Part shown: positions 28,049 through 63,118 of the stretch, one piece after another
Layout: the number at the start of each line of letters is the position of its first letter
Numbering within the stretch: position 1 is the stretch's first letter
Assembly: GCF_900156285.1 (NCBI RefSeq)
Contig: NZ_FTNC01000007.1
Span: 1 to 64,000, forward strand
Reading direction: 5' to 3'
DNA from: Halanaerobium kushneri
GTDB lineage: Bacteria; Bacillota; Halanaerobiia; Halanaerobiales; Halanaerobiaceae
Length of the DNA: 64,000 nt
Program-made: the position numbers and the translations under genes
Notes under the pieces: model-generated
What the model saw: only the letters and a program-made list of their open reading frames with translations
The model's database searches: none
What the model was told of the DNA's origin: nothing

Positions 28049-28077
28049 TTGCTTTTTATCACTAATAGTTGTATAAT
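28049..28077 (+). promoter_or_regulatory. Promoter of AAA ATPase copy 1
   Basis: TTGCTT (28049-28054), 17-bp spacer, TATAAT (28072-28077), 22 nt before the start codon. The same promoter lies at 41835-41863 ahead of copy 2. Confidence 0.7.
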
Positions 28078-28098
28078 TTAATCAGTGGAGGTGATCAA

Positions 28099-29475: not shown

Positions 29476-29556
29476 CTCAATGACTGCTTTGATTTAATTA
29501 AGTTATCTACTGTGGTATAATAAGCATAACTTGAAGCTGAAAATGAGGTGAGCTAA

Positions 29557-31116
29557 ATGAAAAAATTTAACACTACCGGCGTCTGTATTCCAGAAAAACA
29601 TTATATGGCTGATGTTAGTAAAAAAATTAGAGAAATTGAAAAGATGGTTGCAGAGGGAAAATATTTTACTATTAATAAACCTCGTCAGTCTGGAAAAACT
29701 ACAATTTTGTATTTGTTAAAAAAACATCTGGAAAAGAAAGAGTATAGAGTTATTAGTATTACTTTTGAAGATTTTGATCAGGATATTTTTAGTAGTATCA
29801 ATACTTTTTCTAAGGAATTTCTTTTAACAATTAGAGATCGTTTTGAATTTAGTGGAGATTCCAAATTTGTAAAATTAATTGAAGAAAAAGTAGATACTGT
29901 TAATAATTTTAAAGATCTTTCTCGTTTTATCACCACAATGATTAGAAAAAGTAATAAAGATATTGTTTTAATGATTGATGAAGTTGATAAAAGCAGTAAT
30001 AATCAGCTTTTTTTAGATTTTCTCGGCATGTTAAGGAGTAAGTATTTGTTTGAGCAGCAAAATCAGGATTTAACTTTTAAGAGTGTAATTTTAGCTGGGG
30101 TTCATGATGTAAAAAATCTTAAACTTAAATTAGGATCTGATGAGGAACATAAATATAACAGTCCCTGGAATATTGCTAGTGAGTTTAAAGTTGATTTTGA
30201 GCTGGAGGTCGATCAAATAGCTTCGATGTTAAAAGAGTACCAAGAAGACAGGAATATTGACCTGGGTTCAGATTATTTTGCTAAGAAAATGCATTATTAT
30301 ACTTCGGGTCATCCGTTTTTGGTTAGCAAATTAGCAGAGATAATTGCTGAAGAAATACTGAGAGAAAATGAGTCCAGTTGGGATAAAGAATATCTTGAGC
30401 AGGCAGTAAAAATCATTTTAGCAAAAGACCTTCCTAATTTTGATACCTTAATTAAAAATATCGAAAATAATAATGATTTAGAAGATATGTGTATAGATTT
30501 AATTGTAGATGGTAGAAAAATCACTTATAATCTGGATAATCCAACAATAGAAAAAGGGGAACTCTACGGTGTTTTCAAGAATGATGGCGGCAGCTTAAAA
30601 ATTCATAACAGAATTTATGAACAGCGAATATACAATTATTTAATTTCTAAAATAGAGAATTCACTGGAAAGTGATGCTTTTGATTTCAGAGACAGCTTTA
30701 TAGACAATGGTCAGCTTAATTTAAAAGAAGTACTGGAGCGTTTTCAGGTTTTCATTAAAGAACAATATAGTGATCAGGATAGAGGATTTTTAGAAAGAAA
30801 TGGTCGTTTGATTTTTCTCGCTTTTTTAAAGCCAATTATTAATGGTAAAGGATTTGATTTTAAAGAAGTGCAGATTTCTCAGGAAAAAAGGCTTGATGTG
30901 GTAATTACCTATCTTGAACAGAAATTTATTGTGGAATTAAAAATCTGGCGGGGAGAAGAATATCACAAGCAGGGATTAAAGCAGCTGGCTGATTATTTGG
31001 AAAGCCAGAATATGGATCAGGGTTATCTTTTGAGTTTTAATTTTAATCAGAATAAGGAATATAAGAATCAAGAACTGGAAGTTAAAAATAAAAAAATCTT
31101 TGCTTACTGGGTATAA
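29557..31116 (+). CDS. AAA-ATPase with C-terminal PD-(D/E)XK nuclease-like domain (DUF1703 type)
   Basis: 519 residues. The N-terminal AAA-ATPase-like domain has Walker A KPRQSGKTT (41-49) and Walker B VLMIDEVDK. The C-terminal domain (~430-510) has the nuclease-like pattern RLDVVITY ... FIVELKIW ... GLKQLADYLE, i.e. D-(x)n-ExK. Such proteins are abundant in anaerobes and archaea, function unproven, and are suspected to be mobile or defence-related. The start follows GAGGTGAGCTAA. It lies 81 nt downstream of ATPase copy 1. A decayed fragment of the same gene is at 23105, showing local duplication. Confidence 0.8.
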   Translation: MKKFNTTGVCIPEKHYMADVSKKIREIEKMVAEGKYFTINKPRQSGKTTILYLLKKHLEKKEYRVISITFEDFDQDIFSSINTFSKEFLLTIRDRFEFSGDSKFVKLIEEKVDTVNNFKDLSRFITTMIRKSNKDIVLMIDEVDKSSNNQLFLDFLGMLRSKYLFEQQNQDLTFKSVILAGVHDVKNLKLKLGSDEEHKYNSPWNIASEFKVDFELEVDQIASMLKEYQEDRNIDLGSDYFAKKMHYYTSGHPFLVSKLAEIIAEEILRENESSWDKEYLEQAVKIILAKDLPNFDTLIKNIENNNDLEDMCIDLIVDGRKITYNLDNPTIEKGELYGVFKNDGGSLKIHNRIYEQRIYNYLISKIENSLESDAFDFRDSFIDNGQLNLKEVLERFQVFIKEQYSDQDRGFLERNGRLIFLAFLKPIINGKGFDFKEVQISQEKRLDVVITYLEQKFIVELKIWRGEEYHKQGLKQLADYLESQNMDQGYLLSFNFNQNKEYKNQELEVKNKKIFAYWV

Positions 31117-31117
31117 A

Positions 31118-31420
31118 CAAATGGTGCCCCCGGTAGGAGTCGAACCTACGCTCAAGGCTTCGGAGAGTTTTGTCGAAGTTCCTTATGCTATTAGATTTTC
31201 TTATAATCCCTGTCATAACAGCAACCTAGTGTTGGAAATATCCCATATAGTTGTAAAATACTGTATATTTCACTGCGGTATTTAACGGTGGCTGAGGCTC
31301 ACTGCGGTGAAATCACGGTGGAAAATAGAATAAAATTAGCATCTCAATTGGAGATGATTTACTCTCAGAGAGGCTTCATTTTGTTCAGTTATTGATGGAG
31401 CTTTTCTGGGGGTTTTTGTT
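31118..31420. repeat. ~300-bp dispersed unit beginning with a tRNA 3' end (copy 2)
   Basis: Nearly identical to 13933-14232: on the minus strand, ~31166-31122 gives a perfect T-arm (GTAGG-TTCGACT-CCTAC), acceptor CGGGGGC, A and CCA. Then follow the same middle segment, the two ACTGCGGT-type direct repeats, and the hairpin-terminator at 31341-31420. No 5' tRNA half is present. Short open frames here are by-products of the repeat. Confidence 0.65.
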
Positions 31421-41834: not shown

Positions 41835-41863
41835 TTGCTTTTTATCACTAATAGTTGTATAAT
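41835..41863 (+). promoter_or_regulatory. Promoter of ATPase-TOPRIM operon
   Basis: TTGCTT (41835-41840), 17-bp spacer, TATAAT (41858-41863), located between the leader's terminator and the ATPase start. Confidence 0.7.
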
Positions 41864-41884
41864 TTAATCAGTGGAGGTGATCAA

Positions 41885-43273
41885 ATGAAGGAGAGAATGC
41901 TGCGTCTGCAGCAGGTACAACTGAATAATTTTAAAAATGTTAGGCAGGGTCAGATTGATTTCAACAGTTATAAAAGCGAAGACTTTTTTTCTGAAACATC
42001 AGATGTGCTGGGAATATACGGCCAGAATGGTTCTGGTAAAACCGCTTTTATTGAAGCTTTGTGGATACTGAAACTGGTCCTGCTTGGAGAATCTCTGCCT
42101 GGAGATATTAAAGATTATATATACCAGGGTGAGAAAGAAGCTGCTATTAATTCTGTTTTTTCTATGACTTTAGGAGAAAATAAGTATCAACTATTTTATG
42201 AAATGGTAATTGAAAGAAGAGAAAATGCTGCTCCAGTTATTATTAAGGAAGATCTATCATATAAGAAACTTGAAGAAGATGGCTGGACATATAAGAGAGG
42301 GATAATAACTCACAACCTTGATGAGAAGGAGCAGTTGTTAAGTCCCCAGAAGAATTACAATTTGCTCACTAAAAACAATAAAGATGCTAAAGTGGACCTT
42401 AAAGTAGCCAAGGAGCTTGCGAAGAAGGAACAAACCTCTTTTATTTTTTCTAGTGAGATGGATCATATTTATAAGGGTAATAAAGCCTTTAGCGAATTTG
42501 CTGATATTATAATGGAGATTAAACAGTATGCTCGAATGAACCTGTTTGTGATCAGAAATTCTCGTTCAGGTATGATCAATGCCAATCTAATTATACCTTT
42601 CTGTTTTCAGCTTAGTGATTCAGAGAGAATAGAAGGTGGAGATCTGGCAATAGCTCTGTCTGAGCCGACAACAGTTCCTGAGCGGGTCCTCTCTACTGTT
42701 AAAAATGTTATCGAGAACTTAAACATTGTCTTAAAAGAGATAATACCAGAGCTAACAATTAAAATTAAAGAGTATGGAGAAGAATTGGATGAGAACGGTG
42801 ATCCAGTTATTAAAATAGAGCTGCTGGCAGAAAGAGGAGATATTAAGATTCCTTTGAGATATGAATCAGATGGTATTAAAAAGATCATATCTATCTTGAG
42901 TGCAATGATTGCTATGTATAATAAGCCTGGTATTTGTCTTGCAGTGGATGAACTTGATGCCGGTATATTTGAATACCTTTTAGGTGAAATTCTGGAGATC
43001 ATTCAGGATAGAGCTAAGGGGCAGTTGGTCTTTACTTCTCATAACCTAAGACCGCTGGAGAAACTGAATAAAGAGTCACTTATTTTTACAACTACTAATC
43101 CTCAGAATCGATATATTAGATTCACCAATGTTAAGGAAACCAATAATCTAAGAAGCTTCTATTATCGTGGAATTAAGTTAGGTGGACAGGACGAGGAAGT
43201 TTATGAGAGAACAAATGAATACAAAATAGCCAGAGCTTTTAGGGCTGCTGGTAGAGTTGATGCTGATGACTAG
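41885..43273 (+). CDS. AAA (OLD/ABC-type) ATPase, copy 2
   Basis: 462 residues from ATG 41885 (GGAGGTG 5 nt upstream). N-terminal LQQVQLNNFKNV, Walker A GQNGSGKT (46-53), Walker B in GICLAVDELDAGIFEYLL, switch His in TSHNLRPLEK: the layout of AAA_15/AAA_21 ATPases in two-gene defence systems. It overlaps the downstream TOPRIM gene by 14 nt, so the proteins are probably made together and form a complex that senses phage. It is nearly identical to the gene at 28099 over ~440 residues. I cannot assign it to AbiL, PARIS or another named system by eye. Confidence 0.8.
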   Translation: MKERMLRLQQVQLNNFKNVRQGQIDFNSYKSEDFFSETSDVLGIYGQNGSGKTAFIEALWILKLVLLGESLPGDIKDYIYQGEKEAAINSVFSMTLGENKYQLFYEMVIERRENAAPVIIKEDLSYKKLEEDGWTYKRGIITHNLDEKEQLLSPQKNYNLLTKNNKDAKVDLKVAKELAKKEQTSFIFSSEMDHIYKGNKAFSEFADIIMEIKQYARMNLFVIRNSRSGMINANLIIPFCFQLSDSERIEGGDLAIALSEPTTVPERVLSTVKNVIENLNIVLKEIIPELTIKIKEYGEELDENGDPVIKIELLAERGDIKIPLRYESDGIKKIISILSAMIAMYNKPGICLAVDELDAGIFEYLLGEILEIIQDRAKGQLVFTSHNLRPLEKLNKESLIFTTTNPQNRYIRFTNVKETNNLRSFYYRGIKLGGQDEEVYERTNEYKIARAFRAAGRVDADD

Positions 43274-47938: not shown

Positions 47939-49432
47939 ATGTCGAAGTTAACTTTAGAGGAATTAGAATCACATCTCTGGGAATCAGCCAATATACTAAG
48001 AGGCAGTATTGATTCTGCAGATTATAAGAACTACATATTTGGACTATTATTTCTAAAAAGAATGAATGATGTATTTATGGAGAACCGAGAGCACATTATT
48101 GAAGAATACGGTCAAGAAGTAGTAGATGATCCAGACTTTTACACTGAGTCAAAGGTATTTATTCCTGAAAGAGCTCGCTGGTCTGCAATTAAGGAACAGA
48201 CTGAAGATATTGGAGCAGCTATCAATAAAGCCTTTGTATTTTTAGAACAGGAAAACTCTGTTTTAGAAGGAGTGCTGACAACTGTTGATTTTAATGATAA
48301 GGATAGACTACCTGACAGTGTATTAGAAAAGTTAATTCAGCATTATACTGATTTAAAATTAGGTAATGAAAACTTAGAAGATGCTGATCTTTTAGGTAGA
48401 GCCTATGAGTACTTAATCAGACAGTTTGCTGATGATGCCGGTAAAAAAGGTGGAGAGTTCTATACACCTCGTGAGGTGGTTCAGCTTTTAGTAAGAATTC
48501 TAGATCCACAATCTGGAGATCGAGTCTATGACCCGGCCTGCGGCTCTGGCGGGATGCTTATTTATTCAGCTGAACATATTAGAAAAGAAGATCAGGATAG
48601 AATGGAGAATATTTCTCTTTTTGGTCAGGAAAGAAACTTAAATACCTGGTCTATTGCTAAGATGAATATGTTCTTACATGATCTTTATGATGCTCAAATT
48701 AAAAGAGGAGATACCTTTACAGAGCCACTGTTTTTAGAAGATGGTGGTAAGCTGCAGCAGTTTGACAGAGTAATTGCCAATCCAATGTGGAATCAGAGCT
48801 ATGCTAAGGGTGATATTAAGGAGTCTCAGGCATATAATAGGTTCAATTATGGTTTTCCACCTAAAAACTCTGCTGACTGGGCCTGGGTTCAGCATATGTT
48901 AGCAAGTGCCAATCGTGATGGTAAGGTTGGGGTAGTGTTAGATAACGGTGTATTATTCCGCAGCCGTTCTGAAGGTAAGATCAGAAAGAAAATTTTGAAG
49001 GAAGATTTAATTGAAGCTGTGATTGCGCTGCCTTCTAATTTATTTTACAACACTTCTTCACCTGGCTGTATCTTAATGCTGAACAAGAATAAGCCTGCTG
49101 AGAGAAAGGATAAGGTTATCTTTATTTATGGTGAAGAAGATTATGAGGAAGGAAGCAACCAGAACTTCTTAAGAGATCGAGACTTAGAAAAGATATTGGA
49201 TGCTTATCATAATTTTGAAGATATAGAGAAATACTGTAGAGTTGCAGATATGGAAGAAATAGAGAGAAACGATTTCAATTTAAATGTTCCTCGCTATGTG
49301 GATACAACAGAAGAGGAAGAGCCTGTAGATGTAGAAGAAGTTTTAACTGAGCTTGATCAGCTAGAAAAAGAAAGAAATGAGATAGAGTCAGAGATGATGG
49401 GTTATCTCAAGGAGCTTGGTTATCATGGTTAA
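47939..49432 (+). CDS. hsdM: Type I restriction-modification methyltransferase subunit HsdM
   Basis: 497 residues. N-terminal HsdM_N helical domain (LEELESHLWESANILRGSID), then the N6-adenine methyltransferase with SAM motif VYDPACGSGGML and target motif IANPMWNQS. The catalytic (N/D)PP(Y/F) is here NPMW, a variant met in some type I HsdM proteins. It methylates the recognition site within an M2S complex and is part of R2M2S. The start follows CTAGGAGGAATTAT. The hsdS start overlaps its end by 8 nt. Confidence 0.92.
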   Translation: MSKLTLEELESHLWESANILRGSIDSADYKNYIFGLLFLKRMNDVFMENREHIIEEYGQEVVDDPDFYTESKVFIPERARWSAIKEQTEDIGAAINKAFVFLEQENSVLEGVLTTVDFNDKDRLPDSVLEKLIQHYTDLKLGNENLEDADLLGRAYEYLIRQFADDAGKKGGEFYTPREVVQLLVRILDPQSGDRVYDPACGSGGMLIYSAEHIRKEDQDRMENISLFGQERNLNTWSIAKMNMFLHDLYDAQIKRGDTFTEPLFLEDGGKLQQFDRVIANPMWNQSYAKGDIKESQAYNRFNYGFPPKNSADWAWVQHMLASANRDGKVGVVLDNGVLFRSRSEGKIRKKILKEDLIEAVIALPSNLFYNTSSPGCILMLNKNKPAERKDKVIFIYGEEDYEEGSNQNFLRDRDLEKILDAYHNFEDIEKYCRVADMEEIERNDFNLNVPRYVDTTEEEEPVDVEEVLTELDQLEKERNEIESEMMGYLKELGYHG

Positions 49433-50696
49433 AGAGGGATATAAAAATACTTCAATTGGGACCATTCCAGATGATTGGGAAGTTGAGCGTTTAAGTGATG
49501 TTGGTGATGTAACTGGTGGTAATACACCCAGAAGAAGTACAGATGAATATTGGGGAGGAGATATTCCCTGGCTTACTCCTTCACAACTGACTGGAAAATT
49601 GATTAATGAAATCAGTGAAACTGATGAGTATATAACAGAAAAGGGATTTGAAAATAGTTCTGTGAAGTTATTACCACCTGGGACTGTAATTATGAGTAGC
49701 CGTGCTACAATAGGCGAAACAGTTATTAATAAGGTACCTATGACAACAAATCAGGGATTTGCTAATATAATTTGCGATGAAGATAAGGTTTTTAATTATT
49801 ACTTATTATATTTATTAAGTTATATTACTCCTCGTTTGGAGGCTCTAGCAGGAGGAAGTACCTTTTTGGAGATCAGTAGAACTAATGTTAGAAGTTTGAA
49901 TATTCCTGTTCCTCCTCTCTCTGAGCAGAAAAAAATAGCATCAATCTTATCATCAGTAGATAAATCAATAGAAAAAACTGATGAAGTGATAGAAGAAATA
50001 AAAGAACTGAAAAAAGGGTTAATGCAGGAATTGCTTACTAAAGGGATTGGGCATAGTGAGTTTAAGGAAGTAAGAATAGGTCCCAAAACTATAAAAATAC
50101 CAAATATATGGGAAGTTAAATCTTTTGATGAAATATCAAGTGTAAATCAAGGTTTACAGATATCGATATCTAAAAGAAGCAAAAAGCCTGGTCCTAATAA
50201 ATTAAAATATATTACAGTTCAGCACTTAAATAATCCTAATGATAGTAGATATATATATTATATTAATGAGCCGAGAGATTCTGTGATATGTGAAAAGGAA
50301 GATGTTTTAATGACTAGAACAGGGAATACAGGAGAAGTTATAACTGATGAAAGAGGAGTTTTTCATAATAACTTCTTTAAAATTGATTTTGATAGGGAAA
50401 TTTTAAATAAAGATTATTTGTTTTATTATTTAAGTTCAAAATTTATTCAACATGTTATAAAGACATTTGCAGGCACTACAACTATTTCTGATTTGAATCA
50501 TGGTGATTTTTATAGCATACCTGTTTTGATTCCTACTAAAAAAGAGCAAAAGAAAATAGCATCAATCCTATCATCAGTGGATGCTAAGATAAAAAAGGAA
50601 GAAGAATATAAAGCTAAACTGGAAAGACTTAAAAAAGGTCTGATGCAGAAACTATTAACAGGAGAGATTAGAGTAAATACAGATATGGAGGTTTAG
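49425..50696 (+). CDS. hsdS: Type I specificity subunit HsdS
   Basis: 423 residues with two target-recognition domains (GTIPDDWEVERLSDVGDVTGG ~10-150 and IKIPNIWEVKSFDEIS ~220-375), each followed by a conserved coiled spacer (EQKKIASILSSVDKSI...KKGLMQELLT and EQKKIASILSSVDAKI...KKGLMQKLLTGEI). The first half sets the 5' half-site and the second the 3' half-site; the sequence recognised cannot be predicted by eye. ATG 49425 is preferred to TTG 49416 because GGAG lies 10 nt upstream and the frame then begins MVKEGYKNTSIG. Confidence 0.92.
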   Translation: MVKEGYKNTSIGTIPDDWEVERLSDVGDVTGGNTPRRSTDEYWGGDIPWLTPSQLTGKLINEISETDEYITEKGFENSSVKLLPPGTVIMSSRATIGETVINKVPMTTNQGFANIICDEDKVFNYYLLYLLSYITPRLEALAGGSTFLEISRTNVRSLNIPVPPLSEQKKIASILSSVDKSIEKTDEVIEEIKELKKGLMQELLTKGIGHSEFKEVRIGPKTIKIPNIWEVKSFDEISSVNQGLQISISKRSKKPGPNKLKYITVQHLNNPNDSRYIYYINEPRDSVICEKEDVLMTRTGNTGEVITDERGVFHNNFFKIDFDREILNKDYLFYYLSSKFIQHVIKTFAGTTTISDLNHGDFYSIPVLIPTKKEQKKIASILSSVDAKIKKEEEYKAKLERLKKGLMQKLLTGEIRVNTDMEV

Positions 50697-50699
50697 AAA

Positions 50700-53600
50700 A
50701 TGACTGGGAATTGGGATGAGTATAATCAATCAGAAAAACCTGCTTTAAATTTACTTAAAACTTTAGGCTATAAAGTCTATGACCAGCTGGATAAGGATTT
50801 TGTTAAGCTACCTCAAAGAGAATCAGAACACCAGGTTATTCTAATCGAAGAACTAAAAAGTGCTCTTAAAAGAATTAATCCCTGGATTAATGAGAATAAC
50901 TTAAATAAAGCTATCAATGAGATCAGACCAGCTCGTCTGAAGGCTAATTCTCTAATGTCAGCCAATGAGATTATCTATGATAAGCTGATTAATCACATCA
51001 GTCTGAAGCAGGATATCGGTTTCGGCAAGAAAAACCAGACTGTAAAGTACATAGATTATGAGAATCTAGACAACAACTCCTTTATAGCAATCAACCAATT
51101 TCGAGTCAAAGGTAAAGAAACTATTAAACCTGACATAACTCTATTTGTCAACGGTTTACCTCTGGCTGTAATAGAATGCAAAAATAATACCACCTGCAAT
51201 GAACCAGAAGAAGAAGCAATAACTCAGCTAAGAAGATACCAAAATATAAGAAGTGATGATAATGAGGAAGGTGCAGAAGAATTATTCTACCCCAACCAAC
51301 TGCTTGTTGCAGCCTGGGGTGATTCAGCTTCTTCTGCTACAGTAGGTGCTCCAGCTCAAGCTTTTAAAGGTTGGAAGGACCCTTATCCTTATACTAAAGA
51401 CTCTTTAACAGAACTTCTGGGTAAAGAGCCTACAGGTCAGGATATACTACTCTTTTCACTCTTTAAAAAGAATAGATTTTTAGATATTATCAGGAACTTT
51501 ACTGTCTTTGAAGATAAGGGTAACTCTAAGGTTAAAATGGCCTGCCGCTACCAGCAGTATAGAGCAGTGCAAAAAGCAGTAGAAAGAATAAAAAATGCTG
51601 AGAGTTTAGAAGACAGAAACGGAACTGTCTGGCATACTCAGGGTTCAGGTAAATCTTTAACCATGCTCTTTTTAGCTCTTAAGCTGAGAAGAATGAAGGA
51701 TATCGGTAATCCCACAATGCTGATTGTAACAGATAGAGTCGACCTGGATGAACAGATCAGCGGTACTTTTAAAAGGTGCGGATTTCCGAATCCAGAAAGA
51801 GCAGGCAGCGTTAAAGAACTAAAAGAGCTTTTATCCTCAGAAGCAGGCAGAACCATTATGACTACTATCCATAAGTTCCAGGAATATGAAAAGGAAAAAT
51901 ATCCTGTTTTAACTGAAAGAGAAAATGTCTTTGTAATGGCAGATGAGGCTCACAGGACTCAGTTTAAGGATTTGGCCTCCAATATGAGAAGAGCCCTGCC
52001 CAATGCAGCCTATATAGGTTTTACAGGAACACCAATAGATAAAGAATCACGCAGCACCTTAAGAACCTTCGGTGATTATATTGATACCTATACTATAGAA
52101 GAATCAGTTGCAGATAATGCTACTCTGCCAATTAAATATGAGAGCAGGCTGGCTGATTTACATGTAGAGGATAGGACCCTAGATGAATTATTTGATCAGA
52201 AGTTTCATAAATATAGTGATGAAGAAAAAAAGAAGATCAAAGAAAAGTATGCTACTGAAAATGATATAGCTGAAGCAAGTTCCAGAATTGAAACTATAGC
52301 CTTAGATATTATTAAACACTATAATGAAAAGATAGCCCCTTTTAAGGCTCAGATAGTGGCTGTAAGCCGTCTGGCAGCAGTAAGATATAAAGAGGCTATT
52401 GATGAATTAGAAGGTCCAGAAGCAGCTGTATTAATCTCTGGCGGGCACAATGATGAAGGCTTGCTTAAAAAATACAGTGTTGATAATGATCAGAAATCAA
52501 ATATAGTTGAGAGGTTTAAGAATCCTCACTCTTCACTTAAAATAATTATCGTTTGTGATATGCTTCTAACTGGTTTTGATGCTCCAATTGAGCAGGTTAT
52601 GTATTTAGATAAGTCACTCAAAGAACATAATCTGTTGCAGGCTATAGCCAGAGTTAATAGAGTCTTTCCTGAGAAGAATTATGGTCTGGTAGTAGATTAT
52701 TATGGTGTTTTTGATAACCTTAAAAAAGCACTGGCTATCTTTAATCCTTCTGATGTTGAAAATGCTGTAACTCCAATTGAAGATGAGAAGCCAAGACTGG
52801 AAGCCAATCACAGAGAGGTAATGAAATATTTTAGAAATACAGATATGAATGACCTGGAAGCCTGTATTGAGCTCTTTGAAGATGAAGAGAAGAGAAATGA
52901 CTTCAAAAATGACTTTAAGGACTTTGCTAAAAGTATGGATATCATCATGCCTCACCCGATTGCTGATCCTTACAGGGGTGATTTATATAAGCTGAGCAAA
53001 ATTCATACAGCAGTTAGAAATAGGTATCGTGATGATAGTATTGATATCAAAGGTGTGGGAGAAAAGATTAAAAAGCTAATTGATGATCATATCAGGGCAA
53101 GTAGTATTAGAGTTTTACATGAACCAGTATCTATCCTTGACGAGAAAGAATTTGAAGAAACTCTAGATGATCTAAAATCTGATAAGGCTAAAGCCAGTGA
53201 GATGGAGCATGCGATAAAGAAAGAAATTAATGTACAGATGGAAGAAAATCCTGTCTATTATAAAAAACTTAGTGAGCGACTGGAAGAGATCATTGAAAAG
53301 CGTAAAAATAATCAGATGAGTCTTATAGAACAGATTGATGAGATGAAAGATATAATTCATGATATGAGAACAGTCCAGTCTAAAGCAGAGAAGCTGGGCT
53401 TAAATAAAAAAGAATTTGCTCTCTATGAATTACTTCTCAATGAAAGAGAAAAAGAAGAGAAAGGCAAAGTTGCTGAAGAACCTGGTGAATATACTGCAGG
53501 AGAAGGTAGTAATGAGCCTTATGTAAACAAAACTGTCAAAGAAGTTACTCAGAATATCTTTAATGACTTAAGTGAGTATACTAAGATTGATCTCTGGCGG

Positions 53601-53735
53601 CAGAAAACTGAAGTCCTTCAGAAGATGCGAAAAACAACTAAGGTCCACTTGATCAAATATGATGAGTTTAAGCAGAAATATGAGAGTTTAACCAACAAGA
53701 TAATTAAGCTCTCTCAGAATATATTTATGTTTTAA
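50700..53735 (+). CDS. hsdR: Type I restriction endonuclease/translocase subunit HsdR
   Basis: 1011 residues. The N-terminal nuclease domain shows KPDITLFVNGLPLAVIECKN (PD-(D/E)XK). Helicase motor: Walker A HTQGSGKSLTM, DEAHRTQ (motif II), FTGTP (motif III) and later QAIARVNR (motif VI). A C-terminal helical assembly domain completes the protein. It translocates DNA using ATP and cleaves unmodified DNA at a distance. It is 3 nt after hsdS. All key residues are intact. Confidence 0.93.
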   Translation: MTGNWDEYNQSEKPALNLLKTLGYKVYDQLDKDFVKLPQRESEHQVILIEELKSALKRINPWINENNLNKAINEIRPARLKANSLMSANEIIYDKLINHISLKQDIGFGKKNQTVKYIDYENLDNNSFIAINQFRVKGKETIKPDITLFVNGLPLAVIECKNNTTCNEPEEEAITQLRRYQNIRSDDNEEGAEELFYPNQLLVAAWGDSASSATVGAPAQAFKGWKDPYPYTKDSLTELLGKEPTGQDILLFSLFKKNRFLDIIRNFTVFEDKGNSKVKMACRYQQYRAVQKAVERIKNAESLEDRNGTVWHTQGSGKSLTMLFLALKLRRMKDIGNPTMLIVTDRVDLDEQISGTFKRCGFPNPERAGSVKELKELLSSEAGRTIMTTIHKFQEYEKEKYPVLTERENVFVMADEAHRTQFKDLASNMRRALPNAAYIGFTGTPIDKESRSTLRTFGDYIDTYTIEESVADNATLPIKYESRLADLHVEDRTLDELFDQKFHKYSDEEKKKIKEKYATENDIAEASSRIETIALDIIKHYNEKIAPFKAQIVAVSRLAAVRYKEAIDELEGPEAAVLISGGHNDEGLLKKYSVDNDQKSNIVERFKNPHSSLKIIIVCDMLLTGFDAPIEQVMYLDKSLKEHNLLQAIARVNRVFPEKNYGLVVDYYGVFDNLKKALAIFNPSDVENAVTPIEDEKPRLEANHREVMKYFRNTDMNDLEACIELFEDEEKRNDFKNDFKDFAKSMDIIMPHPIADPYRGDLYKLSKIHTAVRNRYRDDSIDIKGVGEKIKKLIDDHIRASSIRVLHEPVSILDEKEFEETLDDLKSDKAKASEMEHAIKKEINVQMEENPVYYKKLSERLEEIIEKRKNNQMSLIEQIDEMKDIIHDMRTVQSKAEKLGLNKKEFALYELLLNEREKEEKGKVAEEPGEYTAGEGSNEPYVNKTVKEVTQNIFNDLSEYTKIDLWRQKTEVLQKMRKTTKVHLIKYDEFKQKYESLTNKIIKLSQNIFMF

Positions 53736-53747: not shown

Positions 53748-54476
53748 ATGCAGCATATTAAACTGGGAAATAAACTAATAAATTATGAAATAATACGCAC
53801 TAGACGTAAAACTATGGGGATCATTGTTGATCATGAGAGGAATTTAATAGTTAGATCTCCAAAAAATACAGCAGAAACTAAAATAGAAGAGGTACTAAAG
53901 AAAAAAACTAACTGGATTCTTTCCAAATTAAAGGAAATGGATAAGATTAAGCCGGCACCAAAAGAAAAAGAATTTATGACCGGGGAGAAACTTCCCTATT
54001 TAGGTCGAAGATATAGGCTGGAAGTTAATCCGGCAGAAATTTCAAAAGTGGAAGTAAAGCTCTACCAGGGTAAGTTTATTATTGACTATCCAGTGGAGCT
54101 TAAAGATAAGAAAGAAAAGCGACGAGAAGAAATTCGGACTGCATTAATTGAATGGTATCGTGAACATGCTAAAGAAAAGATTAATGCGCGAGTGGATAAG
54201 TATAAGGTTAAGCTTGATGTTGAACCAAATAATGTAGTTGTAAAAAAACAGAAGAAACGTTGGGGCAGCTGCAGCAGCAAAGATAACCTGAACTTTAATT
54301 GGAAGATCATCATGGCACCAATGTCTATTGTAGATTATCTGGTAGTACATGAGCTTACCCACCTAATACATGACAATCATTCTAGAGATTTCTGGGCAAC
54401 TGTAGCTGCTGTTATACCTGACATTAAAGAGAAAAAAGAATGGTTGAAGGTTAATGGTAGGAGATTGGATTTTTAG
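53748..54476 (+). CDS. YgjP/WLM-like metallopeptidase (DUF45) linked to the type I system
   Basis: 242 residues. The zinc motif VVHELTHLIHDNHSRDFW gives HExxH with the third ligand His of NHS. The preceding KKQKKRWGSCSSKDNLNFNW is the family hallmark. These proteins commonly follow hsdR and may degrade HsdR or other proteins under stress; evidence for that is circumstantial. It is 12 nt after hsdR behind TCGGAGG, so it is very likely in the same operon. Confidence 0.85.
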   Translation: MQHIKLGNKLINYEIIRTRRKTMGIIVDHERNLIVRSPKNTAETKIEEVLKKKTNWILSKLKEMDKIKPAPKEKEFMTGEKLPYLGRRYRLEVNPAEISKVEVKLYQGKFIIDYPVELKDKKEKRREEIRTALIEWYREHAKEKINARVDKYKVKLDVEPNNVVVKKQKKRWGSCSSKDNLNFNWKIIMAPMSIVDYLVVHELTHLIHDNHSRDFWATVAAVIPDIKEKKEWLKVNGRRLDF

Positions 54477-54505: not shown

Positions 54506-55585
54506 ATGGATATTAATGAACAATTAAAGGCTACTAGAGCGGCTTTAGCAGCATTTGAGCATAAAAGAAATTTAATAAATAATTTACCTATGGAAGCGAT
54601 AAGAAGACAAGAAGAAATGATAAACCAAATAGATCATAGTTCTGTTTCAAAGATTGTTGATCAATATAGGGGATATCAAAAGCAAATCAATGGAATGCTT
54701 GAAGCAACAAGTCAGCTTTATAAATACCAAAGTATGATGAATGAAATGTTAAAATCACCTGTATTAGAATTAATAAATAATATAGATGATACTTGTTCTT
54801 TTTCTTCAGAGATTTCTAGAAATGCATTATTAGATCATTTTAAAAATTTACCTGAAAATTATATCCTACTTGAAAAGTCAAAAAATAATACCAAAGAATA
54901 TATAATTAAAGATACAAAAACTGATAGTCAATTACCAGTTGTTGATAGCACTAGTGCTTTTGGTATTGTGAGTATATTTGATAATATAAGTGAAGAAGAG
55001 GCATTTAATTTTTATAATTATTTAGTTAAATACCCTATGTTAGGACTAAATCATGAGATAGGAAAAAAAGTTTTCAAAGAAATTAAAAGGTCAAGTTTAA
55101 TTGAAAAAAGTGAGATTAGATTATTTCGTGCGCGTACTAGAAGTAAAGGTCAAGAAAGACCTTTTCCTGAAAAAGAAATGTTTGAACCCCCATTTGGAAG
55201 ATCAAGTCATGGACGTTACAATTTGCCTGGACTAAATGTATTGTATACATGTGATTCTTTTGAAGGTGCTATAAAAGAAGTTAAACCGGGAAAAGGTACA
55301 AAGGTTGATATAATTGAATGGGAATTATTGGGAGGGTTCAAAATGTTAGATTTATCTGAAGTTGATTGTCCTTTAGTAAATTATTGTAATTTTTCTTCAG
55401 ATAGTGATTATAATTTGAAACCATCATATTTAGTTCCAAATTTCATTGCTCAATGCTGTGATTTATTAGGGGTTGATGGGTTAATTTATAAGAGTGATAT
55501 GTTAGAAGATGCAAATAATTATGTGTTTTTTTCACCAATTAAAAGCGAGTTCGAATTTATAAAAATGTATAGCAACGGTTATTGA
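54506..55585 (+). CDS. RES-domain protein with helical N-terminal extension
   Basis: 359 residues. Residues ~1-100 form a coiled or helical domain of unknown type; residues ~190-345 are a RES domain with FRAR (207-210), GRYNLPGLNVLYTCDSFEGAIKEV (236-259) and a downstream Ser. RES toxins are NAD+-degrading or ADP-ribosylating enzymes normally paired with a Xre-type antitoxin; no such partner is adjacent. Longer than stand-alone RES toxins, it may be an effector of a defence system in the restriction operon. The start follows TTAGGAGG. Confidence 0.75.
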   Translation: MDINEQLKATRAALAAFEHKRNLINNLPMEAIRRQEEMINQIDHSSVSKIVDQYRGYQKQINGMLEATSQLYKYQSMMNEMLKSPVLELINNIDDTCSFSSEISRNALLDHFKNLPENYILLEKSKNNTKEYIIKDTKTDSQLPVVDSTSAFGIVSIFDNISEEEAFNFYNYLVKYPMLGLNHEIGKKVFKEIKRSSLIEKSEIRLFRARTRSKGQERPFPEKEMFEPPFGRSSHGRYNLPGLNVLYTCDSFEGAIKEVKPGKGTKVDIIEWELLGGFKMLDLSEVDCPLVNYCNFSSDSDYNLKPSYLVPNFIAQCCDLLGVDGLIYKSDMLEDANNYVFFSPIKSEFEFIKMYSNGY

Positions 55586-55726: not shown

Positions 55727-56905
55727 CTATGTTTGAGGTACAAAACTAATATTATTCTTTAGCAAATGAAAAATGACTCTAATTAGTTTTTTACCCACAT
55801 GTGATAAAGCAACAAAATAGTGTTTTCTTTCAGAAAGCTTTTTACTTAGATAATCCTTAAAAGTTTTATCTCGCATAGTAACCGTTTTCGCAGCCTGTAA
55901 AATAGCCCATCGTAAGTATTTAGATCCTCTTTTAACCATAATTGTATGTGTAGCATTATAATTTCCAGACTGGCATACTGATGGATCTAAACCAGAGAAA
56001 GCCACTAGTTTTGATGGTTTTGGAAAACGATGGATATCACCGATTTCTGCAATAATAGTTGCTGCTAAGGTATGTCCAATACCAGGTATAGTAATTACTG
56101 GTGTATTAATTTCATCCAATAATTCTTTGATTTTTTTGTCAATTATTTTAATTTCGCTATCAAGAAACTGAATGAATCTAATAGTTTGTTTAAGTTCAAA
56201 AGCGGTAGCTCTATTAGAAGAACCAATAGATTCAGCAGCTATATTTTTTAACTCAATAGCTTTATTTCTGGAATATTTACCTCTTGAGTTTTTCTTGAGT
56301 AAGTTAGTGAGTTTAGTTAAGTGACAATTTGATATATCCTTAGTTGTTGGTAATTCTAATAATAATGCTTTAGATGATGTTTGGTGTATAGAGTAGATAT
56401 GTTCAGGCAACTCGGGAAATATAATGGTTATTAATCGTGTAAGTGATACCTTAAATTTACTGCGTTGACTGACCATCCGATGACGGTGTCTGGTTAGTGA
56501 CTTTAGCTCAATTATCTGATATGATATAGGTGAATAGGACTTTGAGTCATCAGTAAAGAGCATGGTCGCAATAACCTTTGCATCGGTTTTATCTGTTTTA
56601 GTTTTCCTGAGAGTATTACTTTTTCTATTGTTGTTAGTAATAATGGGATTGAAGATAATAACTTCAAACCCCTCAGAATACAGATAATTTGTGATATTAG
56701 TGCTGTAATGACCTGTAGACTCAAGTCCTATTTTTACTTTTTTATGATTGTGAGCCTGACAGATGGAAGTGATTTTTTGAGATAGAGTTTTAAAGCCATG
56801 GATATCATTTTGGATCTGAAGATTATTTTCATGAATAGTGCCTTCAGAATCGACAAGATAACAGTTATGCTTTGATTTAGAGACATCAATACCAATGAAT
56901 AGCAT
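55727..56905 (-). CDS. IS110-family transposase (DEDD recombinase)
   Basis: 392 residues. The N-terminal RuvC-like DEDD domain shows FIGIDVSKSKHNCYLVD (first Asp), IGLESTGHYS (Glu), and KTDKTDAKVIA (two Asp). The C-terminal Tnp_20 domain shows IPGIGHTLAATIIAEIGDI and FSGLDPSVCQSGNY with the candidate nucleophilic Ser. Full length and intact. The start is ATG 56905 with AAGGAG 9 nt upstream; a GTG 39 nt earlier lacks a site. The enzyme works with an RNA guide (bridge RNA) in studied relatives; one is predicted at 56949-57106. Confidence 0.9.
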   Translation of the reverse strand: MLFIGIDVSKSKHNCYLVDSEGTIHENNLQIQNDIHGFKTLSQKITSICQAHNHKKVKIGLESTGHYSTNITNYLYSEGFEVIIFNPIITNNNRKSNTLRKTKTDKTDAKVIATMLFTDDSKSYSPISYQIIELKSLTRHRHRMVSQRSKFKVSLTRLITIIFPELPEHIYSIHQTSSKALLLELPTTKDISNCHLTKLTNLLKKNSRGKYSRNKAIELKNIAAESIGSSNRATAFELKQTIRFIQFLDSEIKIIDKKIKELLDEINTPVITIPGIGHTLAATIIAEIGDIHRFPKPSKLVAFSGLDPSVCQSGNYNATHTIMVKRGSKYLRWAILQAAKTVTMRDKTFKDYLSKKLSERKHYFVALSHVGKKLIRVIFHLLKNNISFVPQT

Positions 56906-56948
56906 GAGCAACATCTCCTTAAATAAAGTATGCTGTGTTTCCACAAAA

Positions 56949-57187: not shown

Positions 57188-58018
57188 ATGACATGGACTA
57201 GTGACACTGGAAACACTTATAAATTATGTTTATTAGATACGAATGCTGTGAGTGAAATTATTAAAAATCCCAAAAGAGAAGGTAGAGGTTTTATAACAAG
57301 ATTTCCACCTGGCAAGTTTGTGCCATGTATTACGATCTATAACCTAATTGAATTAAGAAGGAAAGTTGAAATATTTGATAAGTTTTTAAACTTCTTTTCT
57401 CTTTATCCATTTTTTCTATTAAAACCATTTCAATTTTTGCTAGCAGAAGAATTACTTAACTATGATACTAACAAAAAAGTTTCTGCACTATTCAACTCAT
57501 TTTCACCTTTGGGTAGAGATAGTTCCTATAAACTCAGGAAGTTTGTAGAGAATATGTTTAAGATAAATGAAATAAAAAGCATTGAAAAAAATTGGCGAGA
57601 TGAAGAAAGGGAGACTTTAAAAACTTGGCTATCATTTAAAGATAATTTTAAACCGACTAAGAGTGATGCTAATTCTAAGGATGCAGAAAGATATATAAAG
57701 GAGGCAGGATCTCAAACACTTATAAGATTAAAACCAAATTGGATTAGAAATAGAATCATTAATGAGAAAAGAGAAATAAAATTTAATAGATTAGCTTCTC
57801 TTAAAGTGATGTTGTATTCTCAGTACTATAGATTATATGATCCTTATTGGAAGCCTGAGCCTCAAGAAGTAACAGATGTAACAATTTTTGCAGCCGCTCC
57901 TTATGTTGATAGTATAATTACAGAAAAATTTCAAGCTAACATTTTTGATAAAATTAATAATAAAGTGCCAAAGCTGAATAATATGGAAGTATTTAGACTT
58001 AATCACATAAGATATTAG
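57188..58018 (+). CDS. PIN-like domain protein
   Basis: About 276 residues. LCLLDTNAVSEI (DTN at 17-19) is the first acidic site of PIN nucleases, and VTDVTIFAAAPYVDSIITE near the end carries the later aspartates; the middle ~160 residues are a divergent helical insert. ATG 57188 is chosen because AAGGTGA precedes it by 4 nt, placing the DTN near the N-terminus as in the family; ATG 57152 also has a site (AAAGGGA). No antitoxin is adjacent. Probably an RNA-cleaving toxin or effector; it is followed 40 nt later by a nuclease-like gene. Confidence 0.7.
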   Translation: MTWTSDTGNTYKLCLLDTNAVSEIIKNPKREGRGFITRFPPGKFVPCITIYNLIELRRKVEIFDKFLNFFSLYPFFLLKPFQFLLAEELLNYDTNKKVSALFNSFSPLGRDSSYKLRKFVENMFKINEIKSIEKNWRDEERETLKTWLSFKDNFKPTKSDANSKDAERYIKEAGSQTLIRLKPNWIRNRIINEKREIKFNRLASLKVMLYSQYYRLYDPYWKPEPQEVTDVTIFAAAPYVDSIITEKFQANIFDKINNKVPKLNNMEVFRLNHIRY

Positions 58019-58058
58019 TCTTTGATTAATTACATTAAAGTTTTGAGGTGAATACTTG

Positions 58059-59045
58059 ATGAACATTTTTACTGCCTTAAGTCAGGGTAAAGGAAGCTTA
58101 AATGAGAATAACATGAGTGCAATGCTTTCGTTTCTTATTAATCCCTATCAAGAACATGGTTTAAAAGACACTTTTTTAAAAGAATTCCTTAAACTTTTAG
58201 ATGAACTTACTACAAAAGAATTATTTGAAAATAACAGTGACCTGCTGAAAAATAAAAATAGTCTTGAAGTAGAAGTTACTCTTGAGTCTCCATATAATTA
58301 CAATGGTCAAAAACGATATTTAGATATTGAGATTCAGCTTTATGATGATGTTTTTGATCCAGTAACAGCTGAATATGAAACTAAAGAAATTCTAAAAATA
58401 GCTGTTGAAAATAAGATAAAACCTTCTTCTGCTCAAAATGATCAGTTTAAACAGGAGTATAAAGCTATTAGATCAGAAATTAATAGAACTGAAGATAAAG
58501 AAACAAAAGTGTTAATGGTTTTTCTAACTCCTTCTGGTGATTTTAATTCACTTAAAAAAGAGTTCGATAATCTAATAATTGATCAGGAGTCAAATGATGA
58601 TAAGGTTTGGTTGAAGTGGGATGCGGCGGATGATTCAGATACACTTGCAGGATTATTAAAGTCACTACTTAAGAGTGAAGCCAACTTTGAGATTGATCCT
58701 ATTTCAGATTATGTTAGGAACACCCTTAAAGCCTTTATTCGACATATTATTGAGACGAATATTAAATTCACTTCTCCAGAGCGAGTAGCTGATGATTTGG
58801 GTGATATTAAAGAGTCTGTAACTGTAGAGCTAAGAGATGGAAAATATAGAATTGAAAAGTACGAGAGCAGCTCAATTAAGGTCTATAATCTAAATGAACA
58901 GGAATATGAAGTAGCAAAACCATTATTAAGAAAGATAATAAGAGATAAAGATTTAGATGTCAGTTTATATTTTGACTCAGGGAATAAAAGAAATACTAGA
59001 TCACTGGGGAGAAAGGTAATAAAAGCATTGAAAGTAAAGGGATAA
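58059..59045 (+). CDS. PD-(D/E)XK nuclease superfamily protein
   Basis: 328 residues. The active-site pattern is visible: E of LEVEVT, D89 in YLDIEIQ, and E-x-K in IAVENKI (115-120), followed by QNDQFKQEYKAI, consistent with the PDDEXK_4 group of defence-associated nucleases. The C-terminal ~100 residues are of unknown fold. ATG 58059 follows GAGGTG by 8 nt. With the PIN-like gene before and a membrane protein after, it forms a three-gene cluster downstream of the restriction system. Confidence 0.72.
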   Translation: MNIFTALSQGKGSLNENNMSAMLSFLINPYQEHGLKDTFLKEFLKLLDELTTKELFENNSDLLKNKNSLEVEVTLESPYNYNGQKRYLDIEIQLYDDVFDPVTAEYETKEILKIAVENKIKPSSAQNDQFKQEYKAIRSEINRTEDKETKVLMVFLTPSGDFNSLKKEFDNLIIDQESNDDKVWLKWDAADDSDTLAGLLKSLLKSEANFEIDPISDYVRNTLKAFIRHIIETNIKFTSPERVADDLGDIKESVTVELRDGKYRIEKYESSSIKVYNLNEQEYEVAKPLLRKIIRDKDLDVSLYFDSGNKRNTRSLGRKVIKALKVKG

Positions 59046-59077
59046 CTAAAGGAGTTTTATAACGCAAGGAGGTTTTT

Positions 59078-59557
59078 ATGGAGAATTGGGTACCAGTTGT
59101 AGGAACTGTTTCTTCTATAATAGGGACAATTGCTGCAATTATTGCCGCTTATTATTCTTTCAAATCCAGACCCAGAAAAGTTAAAGATTTAAAGGTTGCA
59201 ATTGGAGAGATTACCTGTTTAGAAGATAAAGATCAGTGGAATGTTAATTTTTCTTTTTGTAATGCAGAAGATAGTTTGATTGCTAAGAATGGGATAGTAG
59301 TTGTAGAAACAGATAGTATTGATTTCATTAAATTTAATCCTATTCAAGATGCATCAGGTAGGTTTACTGTTCCAAGTGTTGCTTTTGAGAATAATTCTTT
59401 TAATTATTCTTTTAAAAATATTAAGCCAGAAACAAAACAAATTGTATCAATAAAATTGGCTGCAAAGCCAGGTGATTACCTTTTGCAGTGGCGTGCAAAT
59501 GGAGAAAATATTAAAAAGGTTAATGGTGAAGTAGAACTAAAGCTAAAAAACAATTAG
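59078..59557 (+). CDS. Membrane-anchored protein of unknown function
   Basis: 159 residues with one N-terminal helix (residues ~5-27, PVVGTVSSIIGTIAAIIAAYY) followed by RPRK, so the C-terminal domain should face the cytosol. That domain looks beta-rich. AAGGAGG lies upstream. Such small membrane anchors occur in multi-gene defence systems, but no family is recognised. A strong hairpin follows (59559-59597). Confidence 0.6.
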   Translation: MENWVPVVGTVSSIIGTIAAIIAAYYSFKSRPRKVKDLKVAIGEITCLEDKDQWNVNFSFCNAEDSLIAKNGIVVVETDSIDFIKFNPIQDASGRFTVPSVAFENNSFNYSFKNIKPETKQIVSIKLAAKPGDYLLQWRANGENIKKVNGEVELKLKNN

Positions 59558-59558
59558 A

Positions 59559-59597
59559 CTGTCAATTCACCACAATAGTTAATAAGGTGAGTTGACA
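59559..59597. terminator. Strong hairpin after the PIN/nuclease cluster
   Basis: 12-bp stem TGTCAATTCACC / GGTGAGTTGACA (one G-U) with a 14-nt loop, no long T-run. Probably a terminator; a recombination-site role near the recombinase gene is possible. The remaining gap to 59739 shows nothing definite. Confidence 0.5.
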
Positions 59598-59739: not shown

Positions 59740-60285
59740 ATGAAAAAAGTTGAGCCGATCAGAGACAAGGAATTGATTGAGGAGATTAAACGCTTATTGC
59801 TGATGGATAATTACAGAAATTATCTGCTTTTTGTGCTCGGAATTAATACTGGCCTTAGAATTGGAGACATGCTGCAACTAAAAGTTTCTGATGTAAGGAA
59901 TAAGACACACATCCAGATCAAAGAACAAAAGACTCAAAAGTCAAAGAAGTTCTTTATTAATGGTGCATTGCGAGATGCTTTAGATCAATACATTAAAAAC
60001 ATGGTTGATCATGAGTACCTCTTTCAGAGTAGGAATGGGGCCAACAAACCGATCACTAGAAGTCAGGCATATAGAGTGCTAAGTTCTGTAGGTAAAGAAG
60101 TTGGTCTGGAATCCATTGGCTGCCATTCCACTCGCAAAACCTTCGGTTACCACCATTATCAGCAGTACAAAGATGTAGCAATGCTGCAGAAGCTTTTTAA
60201 CCATTCTGCTCCGAGCATTACTCTAGATTATATAGGGGTAAATCAAGATTTGATGGATGATTCAATGCGAGAATTTGAACTGTAA
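59740..60285 (+). CDS. Short tyrosine recombinase (integrase)
   Basis: 181 residues covering only the catalytic domain. The tetrad is complete: Arg40 in TGLRIGD, a Lys near 61-69, His129/Arg132 in HSTRKTFG, His155 in FNHSAPS, and nucleophile Tyr164 in DYIG. The N-terminal core-binding domain of phage integrases is absent, as in small plasmid-borne recombinases of Firmicutes. It probably resolves multimers or integrates the island at an unseen site. The ribosome binding site GAGAGGGG is moderate. Confidence 0.87.
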   Translation: MKKVEPIRDKELIEEIKRLLLMDNYRNYLLFVLGINTGLRIGDMLQLKVSDVRNKTHIQIKEQKTQKSKKFFINGALRDALDQYIKNMVDHEYLFQSRNGANKPITRSQAYRVLSSVGKEVGLESIGCHSTRKTFGYHHYQQYKDVAMLQKLFNHSAPSITLDYIGVNQDLMDDSMREFEL

Positions 60286-60534: not shown

Positions 60535-60789
60535 ATGCCTAGAAAAATGGAGATAGAATATCCTGACACTTTGCCTGATTTACTTCAAGAAAGTCCTGAA
60601 GAATTTGAACGAGAAGCTAAATTGGCAATGGCGGTCAAATTATTTGAACTTAAACGAATATCTTCGGGTATGGCTGCAGAAATGGTTGGGATGGATCGAG
60701 CCGCATTTCTGTTAGAGTTGCACAGATATGGTGTAGAAATGATAAACATGGACCCAGAAGAATTAGCTTCTGATGTTGAGAATGCCTAA
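60535..60789 (+). CDS. UPF0175 family small protein (antitoxin-like)
   Basis: 84 residues matching the UPF0175 pattern: LPDLLQESPEEFEREAKLAMAVKLFELKRISSGMAAEMVGMDRAAFLLELHRYGV with an HTH-like core. Family members are thought to be antitoxins or DNA-binding regulators of DUF3368 PIN toxins; the gene after it is not a PIN toxin. The PIN-like protein at 57188 is the nearest candidate partner but is not adjacent. GTAGGAGG precedes the ATG. Confidence 0.8.
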   Translation: MPRKMEIEYPDTLPDLLQESPEEFEREAKLAMAVKLFELKRISSGMAAEMVGMDRAAFLLELHRYGVEMINMDPEELASDVENA

Positions 60790-61693: not shown

Positions 61694-63118
61694 CTATGCT
61701 GCAATAGTAGCTGGCATATATCCCTGATCTTTGTAGAAAAGTTCATGCTTTGCCTGATAGTATATATCTTTGGTTATGATGTCACTATTAAGTTTCTCTG
61801 CTATTTCTAGAATCTTATCCAGTAACTGGCCTGCTCTTTGTTCTATCATTGAGTAGAGATTAGAATCTTCCATAACTCTTCTTTTTATGTTGGAGCTTTT
61901 TGAATACTCTCCCTTACCTTCGATTAACCCACTTTCCCAGTCTACCCCAACAGAATTACTAAACACATATTGGTCCACCTGTCGTTGTAATTCAGGAGTA
62001 ATTACCTCCAGTGGCTGTTTTAGTAAGTCATTACTTCTCAAAAGTATTTTTCTATTTTTAGTTCTAGAATCTTTTCTAGTTTCACTAATTTCTTCGCAGA
62101 GATAATTTGACAACTTAGTCGCTTTTGCCTTTAAATTATCTTTTTTACTGATGTGTAGGCCAGGTCTACTAATCGAATTAAGAGAGCTAATATGAGCTAT
62201 TCCGTGACCCCACTTATCCTGAAGTTTAGATTGCTCCAGGTACTTTAGATTAGACAGCATGTGAAAGTGTGGTCTACCATTTTCCTGGAATTCTAACACT
62301 GCTATGTATTTGAAGTCACCTTCATAGGCTTCTGATAAATTCTTCAGATTCTCAATGAATTTACTGAAAGCAGAGTAGGCATTTTCAATATTATACGGAG
62401 ACTTACCAGACAGAAGAGAGTTGATTCTTGAAGCAAGTTCTCTTTTAATAGCTTGATTACGAGCACTGACACTTTTGAATGTTTTTTCATCCTTTACAAA
62501 AGATTCTTCTATTTTGGAAATCATAGATGAAGCCTGCTTGATTAAGATGTTTATAATTTTTTTACGTAGATAATTTTCTTCCTCACTGTTATTTAAGTAT
62601 CTTCTATCTTTCTCCTTTTTATACTTCAGGTTGGTCTTACCTTTAAGAAGCTGCAATTCACTTTCACTCAACTGATCAGCAAGGTAGAGTTCATTTTTAT
62701 CTTTATCGCTTCTTTTTGAAGAAAAGAGGTTGTAGAAGTCTACATCTCCCATAGTTACTGTGGTAAAAGTATTCATGTCTTCAATATTAGCAATGGTCAA
62801 TTTCCAGGTCTTCTTTTTCAGTTGATTGATATTAGAAGCTATTCTTTCTTCTGGAGTTGGAGTATAGGTACTTTTACTTCTTGATGGTTTGTTATCATTT
62901 GTCTTAGACTTCCATTTATTTTCCTTTTCTCCGCCCCTGTATATTTCATCTTCATAACTTATTTCATCGAGAATATTACCGTATAGATCTAGCTTTCTCG
63001 AGTACCATACTCCTTTAATATCCCTTTCGATAGAGTTTAATGTTGCTACATTTCTGCCTTCCGCCTTATCCTCATTCTTTTTCATGGTAGTTCTGAGATT
63101 TTGAGCTGTCACTGTCAT
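61694..63118 (-). CDS. Rolling-circle replication initiator (HUH endonuclease)
   Basis: 474 residues. The HUH motif is GRPHFHML (His284, His286), and a candidate catalytic Tyr339 lies in SNYLCEE, the order expected of rolling-circle Rep proteins of plasmids and phages. The C-terminal ~120 residues are variable. ATG 63118 has GGAGGTAATAACA upstream. Presence of Rep with RecT and a small recombinase suggests the island replicates, or once replicated, as a plasmid or phage-plasmid. The nick site could not be placed. Confidence 0.82.
   Translation of the reverse strand: MTVTAQNLRTTMKKNEDKAEGRNVATLNSIERDIKGVWYSRKLDLYGNILDEISYEDEIYRGGEKENKWKSKTNDNKPSRSKSTYTPTPEERIASNINQLKKKTWKLTIANIEDMNTFTTVTMGDVDFYNLFSSKRSDKDKNELYLADQLSESELQLLKGKTNLKYKKEKDRRYLNNSEEENYLRKKIINILIKQASSMISKIEESFVKDEKTFKSVSARNQAIKRELASRINSLLSGKSPYNIENAYSAFSKFIENLKNLSEAYEGDFKYIAVLEFQENGRPHFHMLSNLKYLEQSKLQDKWGHGIAHISSLNSISRPGLHISKKDNLKAKATKLSNYLCEEISETRKDSRTKNRKILLRSNDLLKQPLEVITPELQRQVDQYVFSNSVGVDWESGLIEGKGEYSKSSNIKRRVMEDSNLYSMIEQRAGQLLDKILEIAEKLNSDIITKDIYYQAKHELFYKDQGYMPATIAA

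Follow-up and report, generated by a model that had tools for sequence, protein, structure and literature searches.

Organization of the locus

The window analyzed here, a 64,000-nucleotide stretch of the Halanaerobium kushneri genome, contains three closely spaced open reading frames on the same strand, which we refer to as genes A, B, and C. Gene A (57188-58018, plus strand) encodes 276 amino acids and lies in a frame that extends back without a stop to an ATG at 57152. Gene B (58059-59045, plus strand) encodes 328 amino acids if translation starts at the ATG at 58059 and 329 if it starts at the TTG at 58056, and gene C (59078-59557, plus strand) encodes 159 amino acids. The gaps between them are 40 nt (A-B) and 32 nt (B-C), in agreement with the original prediction, which took the three genes to encode two nuclease-like proteins and a single-helix membrane protein and proposed that they might form one undescribed defense system.

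The genes upstream of this cluster are those that had been named from the sequence, and all of them are identified by Pfam or PADLOC matches. The type I restriction-modification genes hsdM, hsdS, and hsdR (47939-53735, plus strand; PADLOC) are followed by a gene for a YgjP-like metallopeptidase (53748-54476, plus strand; Pfam E-value of 3.1e-61), which borders the variable part on the left in most of the sister islands described below, and by a RES-domain cargo gene (54506-55585, plus strand; Pfam E-value of 3.6e-07). In addition, an IS110-family transposase gene on the minus strand (55727-56944), which the original prediction did not name, separates the RES gene from gene A. To the right of gene C, a putative recombination site of 22 bp (59564-59585, plus strand) bounds the cargo on the right, and it lies 154 bp before the gene for Int181, a tyrosine recombinase of 181 amino acids (59740-60285, plus strand; Pfam Phage_integrase, E-value of 3.1e-25). 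The G+C content is 28-31% in the RES gene and genes A, B, and C, compared to 38% in the recombinase gene. A UPF0175-family gene (60535-60789, Pfam) follows the recombinase gene and precedes the remainder of the island.

The cluster was also said to lie in a mobile island, and this is confirmed by a direct repeat. The 45-bp end of a tRNA-Arg(CCG) gene, located at contig positions 66137-66181 beyond the window, is repeated at 31121-31165 (plus strand) as the left boundary of the island, and a further copy with one mismatch is found at 13935-13979. These repeats point to an island integrated at the tRNA gene and to a second, adjacent candidate element, and the two copies within the window suggest tandem elements extending from 13935 to 31121 and from 31121 to contig position 66181. 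Each of these elements carries one of two near-alike ATP-binding-type open reading frames (28069-29475, 468 amino acids; 41855-43273, 472 amino acids), the second of which is followed by a 228-amino acid frame that may be its partner; we would guess at an OLD-type pair. A minus-strand gene (61694-63118) matches a replication-associated REP_ORF2-G2P domain, so the excised island may replicate. The restriction locus varies as well, in that hsdS (49416-50696) is only 40-65% identical between islands in which hsdM and hsdR are 95-99% identical; this divergence, together with repeats in both halves of hsdS, points to swapping of specificity domains.

Gene A and its relatives

The residues D17, E55, D230, and E246 of the A protein are invariant in all four full-length members of its family, which share 54 invariant positions, and their order matches that of PIN nucleases. 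It is in this order of conserved acids that A resembles VapC and other PIN-domain nucleases. It differs from them in having approximately 175 residues between the two halves of the motif, in having no Pfam match, and in a profile comparison that is not significant. None of the five A-family members matches Pfam PIN at an E-value of 10 or below, and at that same threshold A has no match in Pfam, PADLOC, NCBIfam, or PHROG. When the A profile was compared with PIN proteins of related genomes, the LLDTN motif lined up in register, but the score was not significant (probability 2.7, compared to 0.1-0.9 in reversed controls; E-value of 0.017). A search of solved structures with the A profile returned a single match with an E-value of 0.08, which we judged to be due to chance, and two AlphaFold models of A, with mean pLDDT values of 34.3 and 39.1, were too poor for use. 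Thus, given the lack of a Pfam PIN match and of a significant profile comparison, membership of A in the PIN family is unsupported by profile methods. Of the two proteins predicted to be nuclease-like, B bears out the description with a Pfam match above the cut-off, as detailed below, while A is PIN-like in its motif order and not by its profiles.

Relatives of A are few. Among 199 related genomes, A was matched in its own genome only, and the sole match among 50,697 phage records is a relative in MT836216.1 that is 31% identical to A and adjoins an NgoBV-type restriction gene and a Mob-type gene. A relative in Clostridium porci also adjoins a Mob-type gene, a truncated relative in a Lachnospiraceae metagenome-assembled genome follows a near-identical NgoBV-type pair, and a relative in genome G999 directly precedes an FRG gene. 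Screening of samples of 397, 398, and 391 genomes contributed, after removal of chance matches, only the last of these relatives. Those removed were a response regulator (G251), an Era-type GTPase (G823), a protein methyltransferase-like frame (G1157), and matches in G128 and G743, whose frames have the same 303-amino acid length as that in G823 and were judged by their likeness to it. Outside its own genome, A is therefore represented at four loci, three full-length and one truncated, where it follows an NgoBV-type restriction-modification pair (L009 and L012), follows a Mob-type gene (L011), or precedes an FRG gene (L021). Four scans of viral contigs yielded no relatives of A, and one scan each yielded none of B or C. 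A belongs to a rare orphan family that is nuclease-like by motif and is found with restriction, FRG, or Mob-type genes.

Genes B and C

Residues 2-179 of the B protein match Pfam PDDEXK_4 (PF14281) with a score of 48.1 bits against a gathering cut-off of 22.3 (E-value of 1.8e-12). Its catalytic motif reads D89...E117-N-K119, in which D89 and E117 are invariant in all five aligned B-like sequences and K119 is invariant in four of four; the fifth row, from L050, reads E-L-K if a gap introduced by the aligner is ignored. The residues that had been named as active-site positions, D17 of A and D89 of B, are thus both invariant (in four of four A and five of five B sequences), with the reservation that the PIN assignment of A is one of motif. 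The suggested PADLOC check gave a result for B and none for A: B matches nine models of the single-gene candidate PDC-S26, the best with an E-value of 9.3e-11. The likeness of B to PDC-S26 and PDDEXK_4 lies in the PD-(D/E)XK domain and its conserved D...ExK residues, and B differs from PDC-S26 in that the PADLOC match covers the profile in part and approximately half of B. Passages of PMC12988326 describe PDC entries as mostly unvalidated single-gene candidates, and the passages of PMC11514479 that list PDC genes of Streptococcus thermophilus do not include S26. Our literature searches found no papers for PDC-S26, for PF14281, or for PDDEXK4 together with phage.

B or a B-like protein is present in 5 of 59 genomes of the class, and B-like proteins are present in 7 of 398 genomes of the phylum. 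Between the three islands compared, the dN/dS of B is approximately 0.04-0.09, which indicates that B is under strong constraint by purifying selection. Given its PD-(D/E)XK fold and its resemblance to a single-gene candidate type, B would most likely cut DNA when infection triggers it, acting as a defense effector either by itself or together with C.

Close to the N-terminus, the C protein has one hydrophobic stretch (best 19-residue mean hydropathy of 2.07, at residue 5) and a single predicted membrane helix, as had been proposed. Since a basic run follows the hydrophobic stretch, the remainder of C is predicted to be cytoplasmic. C has no convincing family match, the best being weak PHROG matches of unknown function with E-values of 0.0076 and above, and it shows no similarity (E-value of 45) to the membrane gene of like appearance that adjoins a paralogous recombinase in L058. 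Among the 59 genomes of the class, C is found in three (its own, G005, and G001), each of which has B as well. Its dN/dS between the three islands is approximately 0.31-0.55, a much faster change than that of B, which may reflect either a looser role or adaptation. C may anchor or restrain B.

Co-occurrence of A, B, and C

The islands of G005 (L007) and G001 (L008) contain B, 98% and 97% identical to that of the window, followed by C, which is 79% and 78% identical. Neither island contains A. In the position occupied in the window by the RES gene, the IS110 element, and A, both have an FRG-domain gene and a lipoprotein-like gene, and the homology common to the window and these islands starts at 58052, 7 nt upstream of B. 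Conversely, B and C are absent from all four of the other A loci. C was not found at an E-value of 1e-3 or below beside nine other B-like loci, six of which were checked with flanks of approximately 1.5 kb and three (L049, L050, and L010) with more.

These distributions bear directly on the proposal that A, B, and C form a single undescribed three-gene defense system, in which two nucleases, one PIN-like and the other of the PD-(D/E)XK type, would be joined by a membrane anchor. Their common strand, their gaps of 40 and 32 nt, and their defense surroundings are what such a system would be expected to have. However, the original prediction had looked to co-occurrence in other genomes, and the three genes were found side by side only here: two of the three islands that contain B and C lack A, A occurs without B and C at four other loci, and the break in homology falls just upstream of B. 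The proposal is contradicted by this pattern and could be rescued only by a newly formed chimera with a gained function, which makes it very improbable. The locus is, to judge from its sequence, a defense locus, and we reject the three-gene system. What is left is at most a two-gene module of B and C. In such a module, a PD-(D/E)XK effector would be paired with a membrane regulator or sensor, and A would be unrelated to either. C does follow B after a short gap in three of three islands, and its rapid evolution relative to B is as might be expected of a sensor or partner. Yet all three occurrences lie in the same island slot and so represent one descent, C was not found, at the threshold and flank lengths given above, near the nine other B-like loci, and PDC-S26 is catalogued as a single-gene candidate, so that we regard a genuine B-C module as possible while leaning against it. 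A, for its part, could be a toxin of a toxin-antitoxin pair or a maintenance gene of mobile elements with no part in phage defense. Its position after a Mob-type gene in L011, its presence in mobile elements that bear restriction-modification genes, and its PIN-like motif would fit such a role, but no small antitoxin-like partner gene adjoins A in the neighborhoods listed, and 276 amino acids is long for a VapC-type toxin. We consider this reading of A unlikely.

Contents of the slot in sister islands

Seven islands have Int181 and the backbone to the right of it in common, namely those of the window, L007, L008, L051 (G011), L052 (G009), L053 (G003, which reaches a contig end), and L102 (G013). 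The last of these belongs to another genus of the family, and there the backbone is 98.5% identical over 4.4 kb. To the right of the 22-bp site, homology across the islands is 90-98% identical, and it is to the left of the site that the islands differ. In the window, the slot holds the type I restriction-modification genes, the YgjP gene, the RES gene, and A, B, and C. L008 has restriction-modification genes, the YgjP gene, an FRG gene that is PDC-S15-like, the lipoprotein-like gene, B, and C, and L007 has the same set plus an AbiJ_NTD4/PDC-S32-like gene. L052 has restriction-modification genes, the YgjP gene, a HEPN-MNT pair (HepT and an MNT protein matching PDC-S09), and a fragment, and no recognized defense gene was found in the part adjoining the 22-bp site. 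In L051, a fused methyltransferase-specificity protein takes the place of the whole stretch. L102 has HerA, a kinase matching PD-T4-6 and MADS models, a remnant of the YgjP gene, a PD-T7-4-like gene, and AbiTii. In L053, no recognized defense gene was found before the 22-bp site in the sequence available up to the contig end. The lesser claim that A, B, and C are defense genes in a mobile island is thus well supported, since the same slot holds restriction genes and PADLOC systems or candidates elsewhere.

The 22-bp sequence and Int181

The 22-bp sequence is present as an exact match in all seven islands, in eight copies and two genera. Scanning 14 genomes of the family yielded 13 matches, consisting of these eight exact copies in seven genomes and five copies with two or three mismatches, and shuffled windows yielded none. 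All eight exact copies are located at the right end of the cargo before the recombinase gene, and the nearest copy lies 154-155 bp before the start of the recombinase in seven of seven islands. The sequence to the left of the site varies with the type of cargo, while that to the right is conserved. Three of the five mismatched copies were opened (L103, L104, and L105) and set aside, as two are without an Int181 match and the third, L105, has a weak match (21% identity) to a different recombinase-type open reading frame.

In L007, two exact copies of the 22-bp sequence lie 1037 bp apart and flank only the AbiJ-like gene. The first copy follows C, as it does in the window and in L008, and the second precedes the backbone. 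The arrangement is most simply read as the insertion, at the 22-bp site, of a unit that brought a copy of that site with it. Cargo with the site on both sides is seen in one of the seven islands. Even with up to five substitutions allowed, no copy of the site was found where the cargo begins on the left, nor between the RES gene, A, and B. The 22-bp site therefore does not account for the breakpoints on the left, among them the A/B junction.

Homologues of Int181 are present in 11 of 12 genomes of the genus. On plasmids, 850 records matched the recombinase, and the six that were opened place it mostly among replication, phage-type, or unnamed genes, with restriction-modification-type genes near two of the six. 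Since most of these plasmid homologues lack defense neighbors, the native or ancestral job of the recombinase may be multimer resolution. At five loci with paralogous recombinases (L054-L058), a different motif is found in a comparable position. These paralogues, of which there are several per genome, have their own conserved upstream motif (TTAAGTCGCATTGG-like), and several of them lie near type I restriction-modification or RES genes. Another neighbor of a paralogue, found in the same genome as the window, is a possible defense gene (L055:8974-12033) for a 1019-amino acid protein with nitrilase-like, STAND-like, and TPR segments, and it adjoins both a type I restriction-modification locus and a paralogous recombinase.

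Model for the exchange of cargo

We favor as probable, if well short of certain, a model in which genes A, B, and C ride independently of one another in a defense slot whose contents can be exchanged. The slot belongs to an island integrated at tRNA-Arg, and the right end of the cargo would be exchanged at the 22-bp site, probably by Int181. That the cargo is independent is suggested by the B-C islands without A and by the relatives of A in other mobile loci without B and C. That exchange occurs at the 22-bp site is suggested by its exact conservation in seven islands, its fixed spacing to the recombinase, and its doubling around the AbiJ-like gene. Under this model, cargo would enter, leave, or be swapped at the right end by recombination at 59564-59585, for which the adjacent Int181 is probably the recombinase, and the left part would be reshuffled by IS110 and ordinary recombination. 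A would be a stand-alone nuclease-like gene carried by mobile elements, B a putative DNA-cutting effector, and C possibly its anchor or restraint, and any of the three might defend against phage.

A serious rival to site-specific exchange is ordinary recombination in the flanks. The 22-bp sequence would then be merely the left border of a conserved backbone, and a marker of the edge of such a backbone would look alike in the other six islands. The large region of homology to the right of the site, at 90-98% identity, would suit recombination of this kind, as would the lack of a site at the left edge and the location of the A/B junction away from any site. On the other hand, a mere border does not readily account for the second exact copy that flanks the AbiJ-like gene in L007, for 22 bp that are exact in two genera while the neighboring bases vary, or for the constant spacing to the recombinase. 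For these reasons we are inclined to doubt the border explanation while giving it real weight.

If the slot is indeed loaded site-specifically, then the 22-bp site offers a handle for finding unknown defense genes, because any gene that it brackets on both sides, or that lies between it and the YgjP gene, would be a candidate. Such loading would also explain how the defense repertoire changes gene by gene on a constant island backbone. It carries the warning that adjacency in such slots does not equal functional cooperation. With the multi-gene reading having failed, the slot and its 22-bp site are the more interesting object. A bolder and decidedly speculative extension, which we think is probably not correct in full, is that Int181 and the 22-bp site make up a cassette-capture platform outside of integrons and Xer dif modules, one that adds anti-phage genes singly to a tRNA-integrated island and spreads between genera, and that this platform carries A as the founder of a new family of nucleases that are long, PIN-like, and associated with mobile elements.

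Comparison with known exchange systems

Our searches of the literature on cassette-type exchange of defense genes returned only work on integrons and dif modules, or unrelated work. Integrons have a recombinase gene with an adjacent insertion site, and their cassettes end in a copy of that site. The slot resembles them in that a recombinase gene adjoins the site and the cargo is terminated by it. It differs from integrons in that its recombinase is a Phage_integrase protein of 181 amino acids and in that there is no long array. The dif modules of Acinetobacter, as presented in passages of PMC9455709, consist of accessory genes, including toxin-antitoxin units, that lie between pdif sites, are acted upon by XerC/XerD, and are swapped between elements. 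By that description the slot is similar, with accessory genes at a short tyrosine-recombinase site (a putative one in this case) that would be swapped between elements. In contrast to dif modules, the slot has a 22-bp site with the gene for a 181-amino acid recombinase 154-155 bp away, its cargo is flanked on both sides in a single instance, and its host element is a tRNA-integrated island.
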